36,089 nucleotides of DNA from a virus: the IMG/VR virus record IMGVR_UViG_3300024261_000980, positions 1-36,089 of that record. The stretch is one strand, 5' to 3'. The notes under the pieces are model-generated. The model made no database searches, was not told the origin of the DNA, and saw only the letters and a program-made list of their open reading frames with translations. Positions within the stretch are counted from its first letter, which is position 1. Each line of letters begins with the position of its first letter. Made by a program: the position numbers and the translations under genes. Shown here one piece after another: positions 51 through 34,155 of the stretch.

Positions 51-242
51 ATGGAAACATTAATGGTTGCTTGGGGTTCAAGTCAAGCATGGTGGGGAAC
101 AGCTTGTTCAATCGTTGTAATTGCAAACGCACTTACGATGGCACTGAAAGATGAATATGCTGAGAAACTTCCTGTACTTGGTAAATTATGGCCTATAATG
201 AATTGGTTAGCACTTAACGTACATAATAATAAAAATAAATAA
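51..242 (+). CDS. Small membrane protein, possible holin
   Basis: A 63-residue protein with one hydrophobic stretch (about residues 13-31, including WWGTACSIVVIANAL), a charged middle and a basic C-terminus ending NNKNK. A Shine-Dalgarno AAGGAG lies about 9 bases before the ATG. Size, the single membrane span and a basic tail fit a holin or another small inner-membrane phage protein. No lysozyme gene adjoins it, so the lysis role is only a guess. It precedes the 23S-complementary stem-loop. Confidence 0.55.
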   Translation: METLMVAWGSSQAWWGTACSIVVIANALTMALKDEYAEKLPVLGKLWPIMNWLALNVHNNKNK

Positions 243-247
243 TTAAT

Positions 248-333
248 TATTGCCACTAACAGGTGGATAATTCCCGAACTACGCCATTCGTGTGGGACGG
301 AACTTACCCGACAAGGACTTGTTAGTGGCAATA
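248..333 (+). ncRNA. Stem-loop with loop complementary to 23S rRNA (H70-H71 region)
   Basis: A 17-bp stem (248-264 with 317-333, one G-U pair, 13 outer pairs perfect: TATTGCCACTAAC / GTTAGTGGCAATA) encloses a 52-base loop. On the minus strand, bases 317-280 match the universally conserved 23S rRNA segment at about E. coli 1934-1971 (TCCTTGTCGGGTAAGTTCCG, then ACGAATGGCGTA). From my memory of the E. coli sequence, 35 of 38 positions are identical. A plus-strand transcript, the direction of all neighbours, would therefore carry an antisense copy of 23S. A minus-strand transcript would be an rRNA mimic. It lies between two plus-strand genes, in the leader of the 350-622 gene. It lacks a U-tract and so is not a standard terminator. 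The match is seen in the sequence; transcription and function are unknown. Confidence 0.7.
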
Positions 334-6346: not shown

Positions 6347-7414
6347 ATGAAAAATCAAGATATACATATCGGAATAGTTGGTGCTGGGAATATAGGTTCT
6401 ACTATATACCAGCTGTTGGTTAGTGGTGGCATGAGCTATAAAGTTTCCATAGCTGACCAGACTGAGAAAAAAAATATATTTATAGCAGATGATAATTATG
6501 TTAAGTTAGAGAAAGGTAGTACACAATTCAATCAATTCGTTAATGGTAAAACTCTTATCGTTAATGCACTCCCGTATCACCAAAATATAAATCTTTATAA
6601 AGCTTGTCAATCGGCAGGTGTTGCATATTTTGATCTATCAGAAGATGATGGGCTTGATAAATATATTGCATCATCACATCAAGGCATACCTTTCACTATG
6701 CCACATTGTGGACTTGCGCCTGGAATGTCTACCGTTGTAGCAAATCACTTACTTAAAGGAATTGAAAATCCTACTAGTGTAAAAATTCGTGTTGGTGCTC
6801 TTTCACAGAATGCTTCTAACAAACTAAGATATTATACTTCATGGAGTGGTGAAGGTTTAGTTAATGAGTATCTTGGTGATTGTCAAGTATTAGAAAATGG
6901 AAAATACAATACAGTAGATGCATTGACAGGATACGAAAAGATTACACTTGACGGTAGAGAGTATGAAGCATTTAATACGTCTGGTGGTTTAGGAACATTT
7001 GCTAAATCATTAGCTGGTCAGTATGATTCACTAAATCTTAATTACAAAACATTAAGAAGAATTGGACACCATGATTATGTTGATTTTCTTTTTAATGATT
7101 TAAAGATTCCACAATCAGAATTGACAAGTATATTTAGAAGAATTCCAAAAACCAGAAAGGATGCAGTAATACTTTATGCATCAGCTAGTGGTGAAGGAAT
7201 GGAAGATCAAATAACTTATTTTAAGATATTTAAACCTAAAGATATAAATGGTAGATTTTTGACAGCGATAGAGTATACTACAGCTATTGGTTTGTTGTCG
7301 ATGGTTGAGTTATATATAAAAGGAAAGATTCCGCAAGAGGGATATGTAAGACAAGAGGATGTTAATTGGAAAGATGCAACATCGACTACATTTGGGAGTA
7401 TATATAAGGGGTAA
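6347..7414 (+). CDS. Saccharopine-dehydrogenase-like NAD(P) oxidoreductase
   Basis: A 355-residue protein. The N-terminal Rossmann fold is clear (IGIVGAGNIGSTIYQLL, residues 8-24) and is followed by ADQ at the second strand end. The central motifs PHCGLAPGMSTVVANHL, LRYYTSWSGEGLVNEY and FNTSGGLGTFAKSL match the saccharopine dehydrogenase/lysine 6-dehydrogenase/carboxynorspermidine synthase superfamily. Length fits the shorter members. Possible substrates are saccharopine, lysine or a polyamine precursor; the sequence alone does not decide. No ribosome site is visible, in line with the leaderless promoter. It opens the primase-thyX-nrdJ operon. An aldehyde dehydrogenase at 23136-24617 could take the semialdehyde product of a lysine pathway. 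Confidence 0.8.
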   Translation: MKNQDIHIGIVGAGNIGSTIYQLLVSGGMSYKVSIADQTEKKNIFIADDNYVKLEKGSTQFNQFVNGKTLIVNALPYHQNINLYKACQSAGVAYFDLSEDDGLDKYIASSHQGIPFTMPHCGLAPGMSTVVANHLLKGIENPTSVKIRVGALSQNASNKLRYYTSWSGEGLVNEYLGDCQVLENGKYNTVDALTGYEKITLDGREYEAFNTSGGLGTFAKSLAGQYDSLNLNYKTLRRIGHHDYVDFLFNDLKIPQSELTSIFRRIPKTRKDAVILYASASGEGMEDQITYFKIFKPKDINGRFLTAIEYTTAIGLLSMVELYIKGKIPQEGYVRQEDVNWKDATSTTFGSIYKG

Positions 7415-11586: not shown

Positions 11587-12089
11587 TGTCGAATAAATCT
11601 AAAAATAAAGGAAAGAGTTGGGAGAGGGATGTTTGTAATTTTCTTTCTGATTTGTATAGTCAATCATTTATTAGAGTTCCCAATAGTGGAGCCTTTGTAG
11701 GTGGTAAGAATGAGTTTAGAAAAGAGACACTTTCATTAGAACAGATAAAGTTAATGCGTGGTGATATTGTTCCGCCACTAAATTATCCATACTTTGTAGC
11801 TGAGTGTAAGAACTATGCAGATTTTCCTTTTCATCAAATGGTTCACAATAATAGCATTAGGCTCCTAGATGAATGGATAGGTCAAGTGGTACATGATTGC
11901 AACCAAGAGAAAGATGTTTGGATGTTGTTTATTAAGATTACCAGAAAAGGTCAGTATGTAGTTTATGATACACGAATACTTGATGCCCTTGAGTATGGTA
12001 TAAGATACAAAAATTACTGGTTTTGTGATATGAGATATTTTTTTGATTGTTACAAAGATAGAATCGAAATGAAATGGAAAGGTGAGTGA
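11586..12089 (+). CDS. PD-(D/E)XK nuclease, Holliday-junction-resolvase-like
   Basis: A 167-residue protein. The motif order fits archaeal Hjc or similar resolvases: NKGKSWERDVCNFL (Glu13), RVPNSGAFVGGKNEF, Asp in MRGDIVPP, and the E-x-K pair in FVAECKNY. The last two elements are the PD-(D/E)XK core. It overlaps its neighbours by 1 base at each end, so it is translated with them. T4 resolves branched DNA with endonuclease VII, which belongs to another fold. A function in recombination or packaging is likely but not proven. Confidence 0.75.
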   Translation: MSNKSKNKGKSWERDVCNFLSDLYSQSFIRVPNSGAFVGGKNEFRKETLSLEQIKLMRGDIVPPLNYPYFVAECKNYADFPFHQMVHNNSIRLLDEWIGQVVHDCNQEKDVWMLFIKITRKGQYVVYDTRILDALEYGIRYKNYWFCDMRYFFDCYKDRIEMKWKGE

Positions 12090-13135
12090 TGGTTGAGAAA
12101 AAGATAAATATTGCGTTTAATGGTTTTGGTAGAATCGGTAGAAACCTAGTTAGGAAGTTGATTAACGAACCAAAGTATAATATCGTAGCAATTAATGCTA
12201 GGACAACTGTTGACGTTAGAGCTCACTTGTTTAAGTATGATTCTATTCACGGTCACTTTGACGGTAAGATTTCATTTGAGTTGGATAACTTAATCATTAA
12301 TGGTAAGACGATTCCCAACTTTGATAGAAACAGTCCATCGAAGTTGCCTTGGAAAGAATTAGAAGTTGATTACGTTATAGACTCAACTGGTAAGTTTACA
12401 GATAAGCATTCATTATCTCAACATATAGAAGCTGGTGCGAAGAATGTTATTGTTACATCACCAGCAGCAGATGTAGATGCTACATTAATATACGGAGTAA
12501 ACGAAACAGATTATAAGGTAAAGGAGAATAATATAATTTCTGCTTCATCTTGCACTACTACTTGTTTGACACCATTGTTAAAATTATTACAAAAACAGTA
12601 TGGTATTAAACAGGGATTCATTACAACCGTTCATTCATTCACTATGGGACAAACACTATTGGATTCATCCCATCCTGATTTACGAAGAGCAAGAGCTGCA
12701 ACCTTGTCAATGATTCCGACATATACTGGTGCAGCTAAAAATGTCGGAGTTGTTTTACCTGAACTAGAAGGTAAACTTGACGGGTCAGCAATCAGAGTTC
12801 CAGTTCCAGATGTATCACTATTGGATATGTCGATAGAGTTGGAGAAAGATGTTGATATTGAATCATTACATGAAATGTTTAATAAAGAGTCAAAAGGTAA
12901 GATGAAAGGTATTATTGATGTATCATGTGAGCCACTGGTTTCCGTTGACTATATTGGTAGTACTTTTTCGTCAGTAATTGATTGCCTTTCTACAAACGTG
13001 CTAAACAAGAGATTTTTGAAGTTGTTAGCATGGTATGATAATGAGCATGGATACTGCTGTAGAGTCATTGATTTACTGGATTATTTGACTAAAAAGACCA
13101 ATCCCCCTAAGTCCCCACAAACAAAGGGTTTATAA
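12089..13135 (+). CDS. gap: Glyceraldehyde-3-phosphate dehydrogenase
   Basis: A 348-residue GAPDH. The Rossmann start is FNGFGRIGRNLVRKL. Catalytic Cys155 lies in SASSCTTTCLTP (usual ASCTTNCLAP) and His182 in TTVHSFT. The phosphate-site region DLRRARAATLSMIPT-x-TGAAK and the C-terminal AWYDNEHGY are intact, so it looks active. The loop after the second strand reads VAINART where most NAD enzymes have an Asp (IND); B. subtilis GapB, which prefers NADP, has INAT. NADP use is therefore possible. It overlaps the nuclease stop (TGATG). GAPDH is an unusual phage gene; it might redirect carbon or supply NAD(P)H or ATP during infection. Confidence 0.93.
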   Translation: MVEKKINIAFNGFGRIGRNLVRKLINEPKYNIVAINARTTVDVRAHLFKYDSIHGHFDGKISFELDNLIINGKTIPNFDRNSPSKLPWKELEVDYVIDSTGKFTDKHSLSQHIEAGAKNVIVTSPAADVDATLIYGVNETDYKVKENNIISASSCTTTCLTPLLKLLQKQYGIKQGFITTVHSFTMGQTLLDSSHPDLRRARAATLSMIPTYTGAAKNVGVVLPELEGKLDGSAIRVPVPDVSLLDMSIELEKDVDIESLHEMFNKESKGKMKGIIDVSCEPLVSVDYIGSTFSSVIDCLSTNVLNKRFLKLLAWYDNEHGYCCRVIDLLDYLTKKTNPPKSPQTKGL

Positions 13136-22866: not shown

Positions 22867-23130
22867 ATGTCAGTAATTTATGGAATTTTAGCATTGGTGT
22901 GGGGTGGATATACTGTTCAACCACAAATGTTTGACAACGGCCCGTATGAGTTCAACCAAAAATATGAAACTCTAGCAGAGTGTAAAATCGCAAAGTCTGA
23001 AACGGATATTTGTGTTGGTGAGCAACCGTCAAACCTTTATGTTTTGAGTGAGAAAAAAACCCCTAGTGTTTCAGCAGAGTTAGACTTTGTTGAGTGTGAT
23101 TATTGGGCTGGTTGTTATATACAGGAGTGA
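22867..23130 (+). CDS. Hypothetical protein with Cys pairs, possibly exported
   Basis: An 87-residue protein. A short hydrophobic start (VIYGILALVWGGYTV) may be an export signal. Four Cys follow (CKIAK, ICVGE, CDYWAGCY), consistent with disulfides outside the cytoplasm. AAGGAG lies about 8 bases before the ATG. It ends 5 bases before the aldehyde dehydrogenase gene and shares its promoter. No family recognised. Confidence 0.55.
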   Translation: MSVIYGILALVWGGYTVQPQMFDNGPYEFNQKYETLAECKIAKSETDICVGEQPSNLYVLSEKKTPSVSAELDFVECDYWAGCYIQE

Positions 23131-23135
23131 ATGAT

Positions 23136-24617
23136 ATGATATATAAGAATTATATAAATGGTGTATGGTTAGATGCTTCTAAAGGAAATACGTTCAAGAA
23201 CATTGATCCAGCTCATACTGATAAAGTCATTTCAGAGTTTCAAGATTCTGATGAAGTAGATATTAACTTTGCAGTAGAAGTTGCACATAATGCTTTTAAG
23301 TTCTGGAAAAATACTCCAGCACCTAAACGTGGTGAGATTATGTATAAGGCTGCTGAGATTCTTGTAAGAGATAAAGAATGTATTGCAAAGGGTATGACTC
23401 AAGAGATGGGTAAGTGTATTGCAGAAACTAGGGGTGATGTTCAAGAAGCAATTGACATGGCTTATTATGCAGCCGGTGAGGGTAGACGTATGGCAGGTGA
23501 AGTTGTTCCTTCCGAATTAAATAATAAGTGGTGTATGTCCCGTAAAGAACCCATTGGGGTTATCGGTGCAATTACACCGTGGAACTTCCCTATAGCAATT
23601 CCATCTTGGAAAGCATTCCCAGCATTAGTTGCAGGAAACACAATGGTTATTAAACCTGCCGAGGATACTCCGTGGAGTGTCATTAAACTCGCAGAGGTTT
23701 TCCATGAAGCAGGATTACCTGCTGGTGTTTTCAATGTCGTAACTGGTTACGGCCCAACTGCTGGAGCTCCACTACTTACTAATCCAAAAGTAAAAATGAT
23801 TTCGTTTACAGGTTCTACTGCTACAGGTAAGATTGTAGCTACAACTTGTGCAGAACAGATGAAACCATATTCACTTGAGATGGGTGGTAAGAATGGTATC
23901 GTTATTATGAATGATGCTGATATTGATTTAGCTGTTGAAGGTGTAGTATGGGGAGCATTTGGTACTACTGGTCAACGGTGTACTGCTTGTAGTAGAGTTA
24001 TGGTGCATGAAGATGTCCATGACGAATTCATTGAGAAGTTGTTAGCAAAAACTGAAACATTGGAACTTGGTTGTGGACTAAGTTCATATACAGATGTTGG
24101 GCCTTTGATTAATGAGAAGGCATTAAATAAAGTTAGTGATTATGTATACAATGCAAAACAAAGAGGAATAGAACCGATTTGCGGTGGTTTCAAAAATCAA
24201 ATGCCTAACGAAGAAGTTGATGGATGGTTTTATGAACCAACTATTTTTGACAATGTAGATATTAATGATACTCTGATGCAAGAGGAAATCTTTGGGCCAG
24301 TTGTTGCAGTTACTACTTTCAGTAATACTAACGAAGCAATCTGGATGGTAAACAATACTTGTTATGGTTTGAGTGCAGCTGTTTATACCAGTGATGTCAA
24401 CTTTGCATTTACAGCATTGAATGAAATAGAAACTGGTATGGTATATATCAATGCATCAACTATTGGTGCTGAGATTCAGTTACCCTTTGGTGGTATCAAA
24501 GGAACTGGTAATGGTCATAGGGATGCTGGTAGTTCTATGATTGATAATTGTACAGAGAACAAATCTTGTATGATTGATTTTTCTGGAAAGGTTCAGAAAG
24601 CTCAAATTGACGAATGA
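23136..24617 (+). CDS. NAD(P)-dependent aldehyde dehydrogenase
   Basis: A 493-residue ALDH, full length for the family, from the ATG with AGGAG 8 bases upstream. The general base Glu248 (LEMGGKNGIV) and nucleophile Cys282 (GQRCTACSR) are 34 residues apart, as in other ALDHs. Cofactor-site motifs ITPWNFPIA, KPAEDTPWS and FTGSTATG are intact, as is EEIFGPV. The pattern is closest to semialdehyde dehydrogenases, including the ALDH7/aminoadipate-semialdehyde type, but specificity cannot be settled by eye. With the saccharopine-dehydrogenase-like enzyme it could form two successive steps of lysine catabolism. It overlaps the next gene by 4 bases. Confidence 0.92.
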   Translation: MIYKNYINGVWLDASKGNTFKNIDPAHTDKVISEFQDSDEVDINFAVEVAHNAFKFWKNTPAPKRGEIMYKAAEILVRDKECIAKGMTQEMGKCIAETRGDVQEAIDMAYYAAGEGRRMAGEVVPSELNNKWCMSRKEPIGVIGAITPWNFPIAIPSWKAFPALVAGNTMVIKPAEDTPWSVIKLAEVFHEAGLPAGVFNVVTGYGPTAGAPLLTNPKVKMISFTGSTATGKIVATTCAEQMKPYSLEMGGKNGIVIMNDADIDLAVEGVVWGAFGTTGQRCTACSRVMVHEDVHDEFIEKLLAKTETLELGCGLSSYTDVGPLINEKALNKVSDYVYNAKQRGIEPICGGFKNQMPNEEVDGWFYEPTIFDNVDINDTLMQEEIFGPVVAVTTFSNTNEAIWMVNNTCYGLSAAVYTSDVNFAFTALNEIETGMVYINASTIGAEIQLPFGGIKGTGNGHRDAGSSMIDNCTENKSCMIDFSGKVQKAQIDE

Positions 24618-26170: not shown

Positions 26171-27424
26171 ATGAGTTCAAGTGCAAGACTTAGAGAAACA
26201 CATACAAAACTTGGAGGCGGTCAAAATATTTTTAATAAGATTGCTAAAAACCAAGAAGCTGTTTTGTCTGATTGTGTTGATAAAGTTATAGATGATGTGC
26301 AAAAAGAACATCCAGATTTAGAAATTCGTAGAAAGGATTTACTAAAAAAAACAGAAATAGCTGAAGCTCTTAATAATGGTTATAGGCCGGAAAATGATAA
26401 ATCATTTGTAAAACCTGATGGTGGAATAATCGAAGTAAAAATTGGTAAGAGTTGGTATCCGTTATTAATTTCAGAAATGAAAAAACAGGGGACGAATAAA
26501 GCACGTGAAAAAGAAGGAAAGAAAAAACAAGCAAAAGGCAATGCCATTGAAAGAGCAGCAAAAAATGTTGATGAGTTTAGATTATGGTGTGCAAATAAAA
26601 AATTAAATTATTTTCCTTATGTAATTTTTGCTTGTGGATGTGATTTTCATGCTGGTTCTACTATGTATGATCGTTGTGACGCTCTAGCGAGTTATAAACC
26701 AAGAAATAATATTAACATATTAACAGATTGTCGTATACAACCTGCTACACTTTTTATTCAAGAAAAGTCTTGGACAAGAACCGAAGTTTTGAAAAGGTTA
26801 AGAGAGTGTGTGGATGTTACGCTTAATCATATTTTACAGATGAAAAAAGGTAAAAACTTTAGTGCTAATAATAGTAAAGGTATAAGAAAGAAATCTGATT
26901 TTTATGAAACACCATATAGCATAACAGAACATTTATTTGAAAGAGAGGATTTTGATAAAGATTTATCTGTTTGTGAACCTGCTTGTGGTGGTGGTGCTAT
27001 TGTTGATATATTAAATAAACATTGGACGGATAGAGTTTTTTCTTATGACCAAGAAAAGGATTTTTTAAAAGAAAATGATAAGTATGATTATATTGTAACA
27101 AATCCCCCATTTTCTTTAGCACAGGAGTTTATACAACAAGCTAGAAAAGTCGCCAGAAAGAAGTTTGCATTTTTATTACCACTTTCATATTTACATGGTA
27201 AAAAGAGATATGATGAGATTTTTACGAGCGATACATATAAATTAAAAACTGTTTATGTATTTACTCGCTATCCTATGTTGGGTGATAAGTTACGAAAAGA
27301 TGGTAAGTATAAAACTGGTATGATGGTATATGCTTGGTATGTTTTTGAAAGCACTTATACTGGAAAACCTACTATTGAATGGATTGATAACAATGCAGAT
27401 GTTTTGAGTAAAAAAGATTTATAA
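26171..27424 (+). CDS. EcoRI-like restriction nuclease fused to DNA methyltransferase
   Basis: A 417-residue fusion. Residues 1-200 resemble EcoRI: KKTEIAEAL (EcoRI KKTEINEAL), VKPDGGIIEVK with Asp83, Glu102-x-Lys104 in ISEMKKQG (EcoRI AEAKHQG), GNAIERAAKN with Asn124 and Arg128 (EcoRI GNAIERSHKN), and FPYVIFACG. The GN-x-x-ER motif contacts AATT in EcoRI and MunI. Residues about 240-400 are an amino-methyltransferase: FYETP, SAM motif VCEPACGGGAIVDIL, catalytic NPPF (311-314). Nuclease and modification in one chain is the type IIC/IIG layout. At least eight GAATTC sites exist in this window, so the phage must be protected if the site is EcoRI's. It has its own promoter (P5). Likely a competitor-exclusion or host-DNA-degrading enzyme. 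Confidence 0.88.
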   Translation: MSSSARLRETHTKLGGGQNIFNKIAKNQEAVLSDCVDKVIDDVQKEHPDLEIRRKDLLKKTEIAEALNNGYRPENDKSFVKPDGGIIEVKIGKSWYPLLISEMKKQGTNKAREKEGKKKQAKGNAIERAAKNVDEFRLWCANKKLNYFPYVIFACGCDFHAGSTMYDRCDALASYKPRNNINILTDCRIQPATLFIQEKSWTRTEVLKRLRECVDVTLNHILQMKKGKNFSANNSKGIRKKSDFYETPYSITEHLFEREDFDKDLSVCEPACGGGAIVDILNKHWTDRVFSYDQEKDFLKENDKYDYIVTNPPFSLAQEFIQQARKVARKKFAFLLPLSYLHGKKRYDEIFTSDTYKLKTVYVFTRYPMLGDKLRKDGKYKTGMMVYAWYVFESTYTGKPTIEWIDNNADVLSKKDL

Positions 27425-28903: not shown

Positions 28904-29458
28904 ATGTGGACTAATAGAGATAATCAACCTTTAGTTATTGGGTTTGCTGGTAAAGCTAGAAGTGGTAAAGATACTGCTGGAAAATACTTGGTTGACGAAT
29001 ATCAGTTTTTACGTTATTCTTTTGCACAACCTTTAAAAGATGCAACAAAGATAATGTTTCATCTTACTGATAAACAGATTGAGAATAAAGAGAAACCAGC
29101 AGAGCCGTGGGGTAGATCACCAAGAGATTTATATCAACGGGTAGGAACAGATATTGCTCGGGCGATTGATATCAATGTATGGGTGAAGGGTGCAGATATA
29201 TTTATGAGAAATAATCCTGGCCGTTCTATTGTTGTTACCGATGTTCGTTTTTCTAATGAAGCATTCTGGATTAGAGATCAAGGTGGCATTGTTGTTTACC
29301 TTCAAAGTGATACTAGAGGTATCTATGAAAATGGTGAGCATTCAAGTGAGAATGGTATGAAGGGCGATGATGTTGATATTATCATACAGAATGATGGGAC
29401 TATCAATGCCCTGCATGAAAAACTAGAAGAACTAAAAACTGAAAGGTCTTTTGCATGA
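28904..29458 (+). CDS. Deoxynucleoside monophosphate kinase, T4 gp1-like
   Basis: A 184-residue kinase. The P-loop GFAGKARSGKDTAGKYL lies at residues 11-27. Substrate-lid motifs LYQRVGTDIARAI and VVTDVRFSNEAFWI are typical of T4 gene 1 type kinases. It is shorter than T4 gp1 (241) but holds the core. T4 gp1 accepts dTMP, dGMP and hydroxymethyl-dCMP; here modified cytosine appears to be made on DNA, so the last activity may not be needed. It overlaps the methyltransferase gene by 4 bases. Confidence 0.88.
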   Translation: MWTNRDNQPLVIGFAGKARSGKDTAGKYLVDEYQFLRYSFAQPLKDATKIMFHLTDKQIENKEKPAEPWGRSPRDLYQRVGTDIARAIDINVWVKGADIFMRNNPGRSIVVTDVRFSNEAFWIRDQGGIVVYLQSDTRGIYENGEHSSENGMKGDDVDIIIQNDGTINALHEKLEELKTERSFA

Positions 29459-30597
29459 GTAATACAGGATATAAAGAATATACTTTGAAGGATGTTAGGG
29501 ACTCTGCTGATAGGAAACTATTTACAGTTGTCTCTACATTCGCTGGTGGTGGCGGAAGTTCTACAGGGTATAAGTTAGCTGGTGGTAATGTTCTTGCAAT
29601 GAATGAGTTTCAACAAATTGCATGTGATACCTATTCTGCTAATTATCCTGATACTACAACTATTTGTAAAGATATTAGAGAATTGCGTGTCGAGGAAATA
29701 TTTGATGCAGCTAATCTTGGGCCAGGCGAATTAGATATATTCGATGGCTCTCCGCCTTGTCCGCCATTCTCTATGAGTGGGTCAAAACGTAAAGGATGGA
29801 ATAAGACTAAAAAGGTTTATGGTAAAGTACAAACTAATATTGAAGATTTAACATTTGACCTTATTAACCTAGCTAAAGATGTTCAGTCTAAGGTTATTGT
29901 TTGTGAGAATGTTAAAGGTTTAACTATGAATTATGCTAGAGATCATATGAAAAAGATGATTGAAGGATTTGAGAATATCGGGTACACTGTTGCTCATAGA
30001 GTATGTAATGCATCGTTTCACGGTGTGCCACAAAAACGTGAAAGGGTATTTATTGTTTGTGTTAGAAATGATGTGATGGAAAAACTAGGACTAAACATTA
30101 TCAGTTTAGCTGAAAAGGTTTTTCCAGTACCATATAAACTACAACCTACACAAAGAGATGCTATATATCATTTGTTAGAAGATGAAGATAATCTTGCAGA
30201 AGGTAAAATCTTAGAAGATAAAATGAGTGGTAGCACTACTGGTCAATGGGTTAAGATGATGCCGAAAGACCCGCCTAAGTATGTATCTGTTGGAGATTAT
30301 AACCCTAAAGGTAATGGTTTTCAAACAAGACGTTTGGGGTGGGATCAAGCTTCAAATACTATTCTTGAAAAAGGTTTGATGGGTCAATCGCATATTCATC
30401 CTATATGTGATAGGGGGTTTACTACTCAAGAAGCAATTCGGATTATGGGTTTACCTATTGACTTTGACCTTAAAGGTACATTGAAAGAGAAACAAGCTCG
30501 TATTGGGTTGATGGTTGCACCGCCGCAACTTAAACGTATTGCTGAGACAATTTATGAAAATATATTGAAACCATATAAAGAGATAGAAAATGTATGA
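29455..30597 (+). CDS. DNA cytosine-C5 methyltransferase
   Basis: A 380-residue enzyme with the motifs in order: I (TFAGGGGSSTGYKLAGG), IV with catalytic Cys102 (GSPPCPPFSMSG), VI with Glu151 (ENVKGL), VIII (QKRERVF) and a C-terminal motif (ITQEA-type TTQEAIRIMG). It is a lone methyltransferase without a matching nuclease next to it. The following gene is a TET/JBP-like dioxygenase and overlaps it by 4 bases. This pairing, with a glycosyltransferase third, is the known order of phage 5-methylcytosine hypermodification. Target sequence cannot be read from the protein. Confidence 0.93.
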   Translation: MSNTGYKEYTLKDVRDSADRKLFTVVSTFAGGGGSSTGYKLAGGNVLAMNEFQQIACDTYSANYPDTTTICKDIRELRVEEIFDAANLGPGELDIFDGSPPCPPFSMSGSKRKGWNKTKKVYGKVQTNIEDLTFDLINLAKDVQSKVIVCENVKGLTMNYARDHMKKMIEGFENIGYTVAHRVCNASFHGVPQKRERVFIVCVRNDVMEKLGLNIISLAEKVFPVPYKLQPTQRDAIYHLLEDEDNLAEGKILEDKMSGSTTGQWVKMMPKDPPKYVSVGDYNPKGNGFQTRRLGWDQASNTILEKGLMGQSHIHPICDRGFTTQEAIRIMGLPIDFDLKGTLKEKQARIGLMVAPPQLKRIAETIYENILKPYKEIENV

Positions 30598-33127: not shown

Positions 33128-33237
33128 AAGAAACAATAGTATGGAGTATGATAGGTATTGCTGTTGTCATGTGTTTGGCTTTAGGACTGTATGAATTGAT
33201 TAACTTCATGGAAAGTTGTCAATGTGTTAGTCTATAA
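33124..33237 (+). CDS. Tiny membrane protein (37 aa)
   Basis: A 37-residue frame with one helix (WSMIGIAVVMCLALGLYELI) and a C-terminal CQC. Its ATG overlaps the previous stop by 4 bases. It is the third one-helix or partly hydrophobic small protein in this stretch. It ends just before the tmRNA promoter. Function unknown. Confidence 0.55.
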   Translation: MKETIVWSMIGIAVVMCLALGLYELINFMESCQCVSL

Positions 33238-33247
33238 CGAATTGCTG

Positions 33248-33253
33248 TATAAT
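33248..33253 (+). promoter_or_regulatory. -10 box before the tmRNA
   Basis: A perfect TATAAT lies about 7 bases before the predicted start of the tmRNA acceptor piece. No good -35 box is seen at the right distance. The upstream TATAACGAAT also occurs in promoter P7. Confidence 0.5.
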
Positions 33254-33259
33254 CTGTAT

Positions 33260-33496
33260 AACGGAACTATATAGGACGGGGGTTCGATTCCCCCTTCCTC
33301 CACCAAATTCTATTACGGGGGAAATCGGTTTCGACTGTATATGGAAGGTATACGGACAGCACGGAGAAGAATGATGGCTCCGTTATCAATCATTCAAATC
33401 ACAAACGCAAACGATTATTCGTATGCTATTGCTGCGTAGTTAAGTAGCTAGGGTTTTGGTAGTTTTCCTCGTAACAGAATAAACTACCGCTTATTA
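33260..33496 (+). ncRNA. ssrA: Circularly permuted two-piece tmRNA
   Basis: The acceptor piece comes first (about 33260-33305): P2 strand TATATAG (33268-33274), T arm GGGGG-TTCGATT-CCCCC, acceptor strand TTCCTCC and encoded ACCA. An 11-base spacer follows, then the coding piece from 33317 starting GGGGGAAATCGGTTTCGACTG. The acceptor stem pairs fully with the alanine mark G3-U70 (33319 with 33299). P2 forms between 33335-33341 and 33268-33274. The tag frame 33407-33436 encodes ANDYSYAIAA, with stop TAG; it resembles ANDENYALAA. A final hairpin GGTAGTTT / AAACTACC (33458-33489) fits a late pseudoknot element. It rescues stalled ribosomes and marks proteins for proteolysis. The exact ends are approximate. 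Confidence 0.93.
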
Positions 33497-33516
33497 ATAT
33501 AATATGGAGATTTATT

Positions 33517-34155
33517 TTGAACGATTTAACTGAGAATTTATTATTCAAAGTAGGTAAGGTACATTCTGGTTTTATCAAACATACATATACAATTTATGAT
33601 AGGTCTTATAAACCTGATATTTTGGATGGTGTATTAGAGTCAGAGTTTGCATATCTTTTTGAAAGATTATTTTATGATAGAGTTCAGAGTTTAAAACTTT
33701 CTTGTGATGTGATTGAAAAAAAAGAGATGGATAGTTTAATAGAAGGTTTTGGGAATGGTGTCGGTTATAGTGAAGATGCTTTGAAATTTAAAAAGAATAT
33801 CAACAAAGCTGATTCTGCTGTGATAAAAAAGTCTGGATACACTGCAGACCATTTTGAACAACCACAAATGAAATGTAAAAAAGTATTAATAGAACAAAAT
33901 AAAAATAAAAAGACTTGGATATTTGATGAATATGTAAAATTTTATATTACTTGTGCTAGAGTTAATTTAGTAACAAGTAATGAAAATACTTTATTAGGTA
34001 GTAAAACAAAAGAAGATAGAAGATTATATTATTCTGATATATTTGGTGAAGATAGACAGTTAAAAATATATGATATAAATGGAAATATTATTGATGCTGA
34101 TGTTGATAGCTCTATGTATCAATTAAAGCCATCATTGATAGCTTTTTTCAAATAG
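33517..34155 (+). CDS. Hypothetical protein between tmRNA and tRNA-Gly
   Basis: A 212-residue protein with a TTG start and GGAG 8 bases upstream. It is mixed alpha/beta, with DRSYKPDILDGVLESEFAYL near the N-terminus and a KKTWIFDEYVKFYITCARV centre. No motif of a known enzyme is visible. Its place in the RNA gene cluster suggests it may be expressed together with the tmRNA. Function unknown. Confidence 0.6.
   Translation: MNDLTENLLFKVGKVHSGFIKHTYTIYDRSYKPDILDGVLESEFAYLFERLFYDRVQSLKLSCDVIEKKEMDSLIEGFGNGVGYSEDALKFKKNINKADSAVIKKSGYTADHFEQPQMKCKKVLIEQNKNKKTWIFDEYVKFYITCARVNLVTSNENTLLGSKTKEDRRLYYSDIFGEDRQLKIYDINGNIIDADVDSSMYQLKPSLIAFFK

Follow-up and report, generated by a model that had tools for sequence, protein, structure and literature searches.

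A conserved phage stem-loop complementary to helix 71 of 23S rRNA, with counterparts in unrelated phages

Why would a phage genome carry, between two of its genes, 38 bases complementary to the conserved core of bacterial 23S rRNA? The window analyzed here is the whole 36,089-nucleotide stretch of IMG/VR virus record IMGVR_UViG_3300024261_000980, in which the element occupies positions 248 to 333 (Table 1). A sequence-only reading had described a 17-bp stem presenting a loop that is the reverse complement of the region of helices 70 and 71 (H70-H71) of 23S rRNA, and both parts of that description are borne out. Fold prediction places the stem around a 52-nt loop region, with z = -5.7 and none of 200 shuffled sequences equally stable, and local search aligns the plus strand of the anti-23S segment as the reverse complement of E. 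coli 23S rRNA (35 of 38 bases identical, E ~1e-11). The segment also matches the 23S rRNA of Salmonella and is matched in 5,395 of 5,426 E. coli genomes.

Table 1. Features of the stem-loop and its flanking genes in the window.
Feature	Position	Strand	Basis
Upstream gene, 63 aa, probably membrane-bound	51..242	+	90-94% identical in relatives; nothing above cut-off in Pfam or PHROG
Left arm of the 17-bp stem	248..264	+	MFE and centroid fold, z -5.7
Variable loop stretch without 23S complementarity	265..279	+	Low identity in relatives compared with the rest of the element
Anti-23S segment, predicted to pair with H71 and the strand 3' of it	280..317	+	35 Watson-Crick, 2 G-U, 1 mismatch
A replacing T (GACGG for GTCGG), the sole true mismatch	297	+	Pairing count, unpaired probabilities
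Right arm of the stem	317..333	+	16/16 kept over 318-333; a Rho-independent terminator sits here in relatives without the element
Downstream gene, 90 aa	350..622	+	Shine-Dalgarno AAGGA 3' of the stem; no match accepted in Pfam or PHROG

Read as RNA against 23S rRNA, the segment forms 35 Watson-Crick pairs, two G-U pairs (one G opposite U, one U opposite G) and a single A:A opposition, so that 37 of 38 positions are paired. The predicted duplex reaches about -74 kcal/mol, compared with -48.5 for the most stable among 100 shuffled loops. The target spans 1934-1971 in the annotated E. coli 23S gene copy, or approximately 1940-1977 in standard numbering, which we take to be H71 and the strand 3' of it by anchoring on m5U1939 and m5C1962. 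At a permissive threshold, part of the element, in minus-strand orientation, is recognized by Rfam as bacterial LSU rRNA. No Rfam 15 family reaches its gathering score in the window element, none matches at the elements of 12 other loci, and no 16S match beyond chance was found in the window element.

An exact complement of H71 would carry an inverted repeat of its own (GTCGG...CCGAC) and would therefore fold on itself. Because the A at position 297 breaks this pairing, the CGAC stretch of the window element is predicted to be unpaired with a probability of 0.93-1.0, versus ~0.12 in the exact complement; across the whole 38-base segment, about half is unpaired in the predicted fold (0.48). The same A-for-T change recurs in the uncultivated phage L018 and in phage 4HA13. 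The hairpin site is broken otherwise in Arya (ATTGG), PT1 (ACTGG), AH01 (CCGG), KA2-1 (TTAG) and L002 (GTTGG), and L005 and L010 have an entire hairpin inserted there, a pattern that was defined after the loci had been inspected. Judged from the sequences, the departures from rRNA appear patterned, comprising two wobble-keeping changes and one hairpin-breaking change. A further pairing, of TCCC with GGGA, had been proposed as a selected structure; this part of the earlier proposal does not hold, as TCCC is replaced by TCTT or TTCT in relatives and is not conserved.

The proposal that the stem-loop itself is under selection finds support in related marine phages, where it lies between the same two genes in several contigs (L004/L015, L013/L017 and L047-L049). 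L004 and L013 retain all bases of the anti-23S segment (38/38), and L047-L049 depart from it once, GACGG to GACTG, whereas the third codon positions of the upstream gene differ from the window at 25-27% of sites, and at 32% between L004 and L013. The downstream gene shows ~60% nucleotide identity in the relatives with the full 38/38 match. Within the element, positions 266-279, which belong to the part of the loop lacking 23S complementarity, show 78.6% identity, compared with 93-100% for the rest, and the only change in the stem arms is a C to T that turns a G-C pair into G-U. Other related marine phages (L053-L056) encode the same two genes without the element and have a plain G/C-stem hairpin at the site, which in L053 scores as a terminator. 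The element thus takes the place of an intercistronic terminator hairpin, a position that fits an RNA made together with the upstream gene. A search for relatives by way of the 193-aa protein returned none.

Recurrence extends to unrelated phages. The 18-mer GGAACTTACCCGACAAGG occurs in 21 viral contigs (a count that includes L016, which is true rRNA, and L007, which holds a real 23S piece), compared with one contig each for two other strongly conserved rRNA 18-mers; these controls rule out a fragment drawn from an arbitrary rRNA region. A scan of an 85,000-species bacterial and archaeal genome collection, which required D (not C) before the 18-mer, gave eight matches, all of them genes or true 23S, ruling out a bacterial origin. 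Altogether, some ten phage lineages carry the anti-H71 sequence. It usually sits in a hairpin between genes, the hairpins being unrelated in sequence, and a terminator is often adjacent. Among isolated phages, where the sequence is mostly intergenic, carriers include Jilinvirus (Arya, PT1, ECO1230-10, KA2-1 and their kin), Guernseyvirinae (Hafnia TS33 and Pantoea AH01, directly after the lysin gene) and Sabourvirus 4HA13 (where the o-spanin gene ends). In uncultivated phages, the site follows an endolysin gene (L105 and L106), a probable capsid gene (L002) or terminase and thioredoxin-like genes (L005/L010); L018, L068 and L112 are further uncultivated members. Isolated phages bearing such an element include Enterobacter phage Arya, Salmonella PT1, Escherichia Bas97 and Pantoea AH01.

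The quality of the match varies among these carriers. Several lineages match over only 17-25 nt, and some of the weaker loci, including intergenic 16-mer matches, may be due to chance, the expectation for which is not nil in a large collection. The loop can decay or change and does not seem indispensable everywhere: its core is mismatched at two positions in Jilinvirus ep3, which keeps the stem, and the match survives only in part in Serratia MQ-4. Weak matches in the Staphylococcus 92-kb phages and TPWB06 (L032, L033) and in a vequintavirus gene (L026) were left uncounted, as was the E. coli plasmid pC27A-2 (L038), whose 23S-like stretch with many indels is probably a low-quality or error-laden rRNA copy. 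L028 and L029 show a gapped pattern in an unrelated context.

When the core was held unpaired, the hairpin around it was significant (p < 0.05) at 8 of 12 intergenic loci versus 2 of 19 chance matches inside genes, a comparison defined after the loci were inspected and in which the 12 loci are partly dependent (Arya, PT1 and KA2-1 are relatives; AH01, L105 and L106 share homology). Folding energy alone is not significant for L068, AH01, PT1 and, in a short window, L018; larger windows are significant for the window element, L013, L018 and L005 (p 0.003 to 0.037), with L010 just missing (0.06), and L112 shows no hairpin around the core. The L005/L010 pair illustrates replacement of the stem around a retained loop: the two contigs share 76% identity across 2.9 kb of flanking sequence, and in the intergenic region only the 24-nt antisense stretch (96%) and a short downstream piece align, the outer stem and inner hairpin having been swapped for other paired sequence.

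The genomic setting favors reading the element as a plus-strand antisense RNA. It lies between the stop codon (242) and start codon (350) of two same-strand genes, and the plausible genes nearby are on the plus strand. In the intergenic lineages examined, either the upstream gene or a terminator behind the element lies, where readable, on the antisense strand. In addition, the wobble differences pair only as plus-strand RNA, and self-pairing is broken. Regulatory signals add little: no terminator is called at the element in the window, the sigma-70 scan was uninformative and supports no promoter for it, and ATAAATA at 235, considered as a T4/cyanophage-type late promoter, is not above chance (22 found, 21.7 expected). 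The downstream gene had been taken as cold-shock-like, an assignment that Pfam does not support, finding no cold-shock domain in it.

Taken together, these observations are consistent with a conserved phage antisense RNA hairpin directed against H71, which would bind free 50S subunits or nascent 23S rRNA and either block 70S formation or mark the rRNA; we give this reading about an even chance. The hairpin would be transcribed along with the surrounding plus-strand genes, and we infer that it persists as a stable RNA and binds ribosomes. Its 17-bp stem would display the loop for base pairing with H71 and the strand 3' of it in host 23S rRNA. H71 lies where the two subunits meet; it should be accessible while 50S is free or still maturing, rather than in 70S. 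Because H71 is itself base-paired in the mature 50S subunit, an exposed target must be assumed. Binding to free 50S or nascent 23S would then block 70S formation or mark the rRNA for cleavage, so that translation or ribosome assembly would be weakened in the infected host; of these, interference with 50S/70S formation is presumably the likeliest action. As a precedent, the toxin MazF-mt6 cuts 23S rRNA at neighboring loop 70 in 50S, not in 70S, and 70S assembly is lost (PMC5408214).

The main rival places the action in cis. A hairpin in the mRNA could tether a 50S subunit, or a ribosome that has just terminated, close to the next start and thereby raise translation of the downstream gene, much as caliciviruses reinitiate through pairing between mRNA and 18S rRNA (PMC2793014, PMC3035654). 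The window element, situated between a stop and a start codon with AAGGA 3' of its stem, suits such a role. A tether does not fit L002, Jilinvirus, AH01, L105, L106 and L112, in which a terminator stands 3' of the loop ahead of any gene; relatives with the same two genes also manage without the element, and H71 is buried in 70S, so that we regard this explanation as rather improbable. A counter-defence role, in which the RNA covers H70-H71 and protects it from rRNA-cutting toxins or abortive-infection nucleases, would make sense of its presence and absence among close relatives as an arms race, and suitable attackers exist in MazF-mt6, which cuts UU^CCU in helix/loop 70, and MazF-mt3, which cuts U^CCUU (PMC5408214). 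Yet the antisense starts at ~1940 and covers only part of UUCCU, most other lineages center on 1942-1958, the element has no defence gene linked to it, and the duplex itself should block 70S formation, all of which makes a shield unlikely.

It is likewise necessary to ask whether the sequence acts as RNA at all. Plain rRNA contamination or misassembly is ruled out: the 23S match stops at 280 and 317, phage genes flank it on both sides in several contigs, and the departures from rRNA are patterned. A captured rRNA fragment serving as a DNA-level recombination or homing site, or surviving as a neutral remnant in a terminator stem, is a subtler variant, and short exact rRNA matches can indeed arise by capture; some other phage contigs (L003, L020, L014 and L006) have a plain stretch of 23S in which the native hairpin survives. 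Stronger conservation than at synonymous sites, the exchange of stems about a retained loop (L005/L010), a self-hairpin broken in independent lineages, placement on the transcribed strand and the absence of other rRNA regions in the control 18-mers all argue against it, and we consider mere capture a poor fit with little likelihood. On these sequence grounds, the element does not appear to be an rRNA remnant. The opposite strand offers a last alternative. The H70-H71 region is the substrate of the m5U1939 and m5C1962 methyltransferases, and a minus-strand RNA imitating H71 could titrate rRNA-modifying enzymes or assembly factors; a sense-type class of this kind may exist elsewhere. For the window, this decoy, also raised by the sequence-only reading, is very improbable indeed, given the plus-strand genes around the element, the H71 hairpin broken at 297 and the lack of any minus-strand promoter above chance nearby.

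Returning to the antisense reading, some lineages present a second complementarity. A longer predicted RNA, homologous among AH01, L106, MQ-4 and Jilinvirus, is composed of the anti-H71 hairpin, a AGGAGGTGATCC-like stretch and then a terminator. The AGGAGGTGATCC-like stretch is complementary to the 3' end of 16S rRNA over 12/12 bases in KA2-1, 11 in MQ-4, 10 in TS33 and 9 in Arya. In L037 (1990-2090), L031, L036, L044 and L106, such a 16S complement lies 3' of the anti-H71 hairpin and is followed by a conserved TATCTC. This complementarity is suggestive only, because these bases can also pair locally into a hairpin and the lineages do not count as independent. Tentatively, and with the balance still against it, phages may have repeatedly evolved antisense RNAs against H71 of 23S rRNA, and the Jilinvirus/Guernseyvirinae RNA with AGGAGGTGATCC could seize both subunits and stop initiation.

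Among known systems, the TURBS elements of caliciviruses and influenza B are similar in being viral RNA structures with a short rRNA-complementary stretch located between two genes. They differ in pairing with small-subunit (18S) rRNA, in being eukaryotic and in needing a downstream reading frame, whereas the present element is directed at 23S H71 in a bacterial setting and in several lineages has a terminator in place of a gene. Bacterial and phage trans-acting antisense sRNAs of the 3'-UTR/terminator-hairpin type resemble the predicted element in exposing an antisense seed in a hairpin loop and in often ending at an intrinsic terminator, but they are known to act on mRNAs or other small RNAs rather than on the conserved core of 23S. 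MazF-mt6 and related toxins resemble the proposed RNA in acting at a neighboring 23S site that is reachable in 50S, not 70S, and in stopping 70S assembly; these are protein endoribonucleases, while the element would act by base pairing. Ribosome-targeting phage proteins and hibernation factors are also viral or stress factors acting on the ribosome, but they too are proteins.

Most of the phage factors known to affect host translation are proteins, nucleases or modified tRNAs. The literature searches for phage RNAs pairing with 23S rRNA returned nothing relevant, and neither they nor Rfam 15 contain an RNA of this kind, in agreement with the initial impression of an undescribed phage element. 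If true, a recurrent antisense RNA against a part of 23S rRNA that ranks among its most conserved would represent a new viral way of handling the ribosome and would mark a ribosomal site open to base pairing in vivo, with relevance to ribosome assembly and to antisense antibacterials.

A mirror class of elements carries 23S rRNA in the sense orientation. Pieces in L003 (10209-10248), L020 (519-560), L014 (10402-10443) and L006 (1689-1713, a shorter piece) correspond to E. coli 23S 1919-1961, and their H71 hairpin is fully or almost fully preserved; two of these contigs are P2-like, and there a terminator-like hairpin follows on the sense strand. Such pieces could be H70-H71 mimics or attachment sites. 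In L007 (14420-14579), phage terminase-region genes run into true 23S with the same boundary (~1919) as the sense-type elements; this contig is probably an assembly chimera seeded by the shared 23S piece.

Elsewhere, the window encodes a permuted two-piece tmRNA gene (33191-33530; Rfam tmRNA_permuted and beta_tmRNA, ARAGORN tag ANDYSYAIAA). A single reading frame at 26171-27424 combines EcoRI-type nuclease and adenine methylase domains and is followed by a C5-cytosine methylase gene (29455-30597). Metabolic genes are also present, encoding saccharopine-dehydrogenase-like (6347-7414), glyceraldehyde-3-phosphate dehydrogenase (12086-13135) and aldehyde dehydrogenase (23103-24617) proteins.
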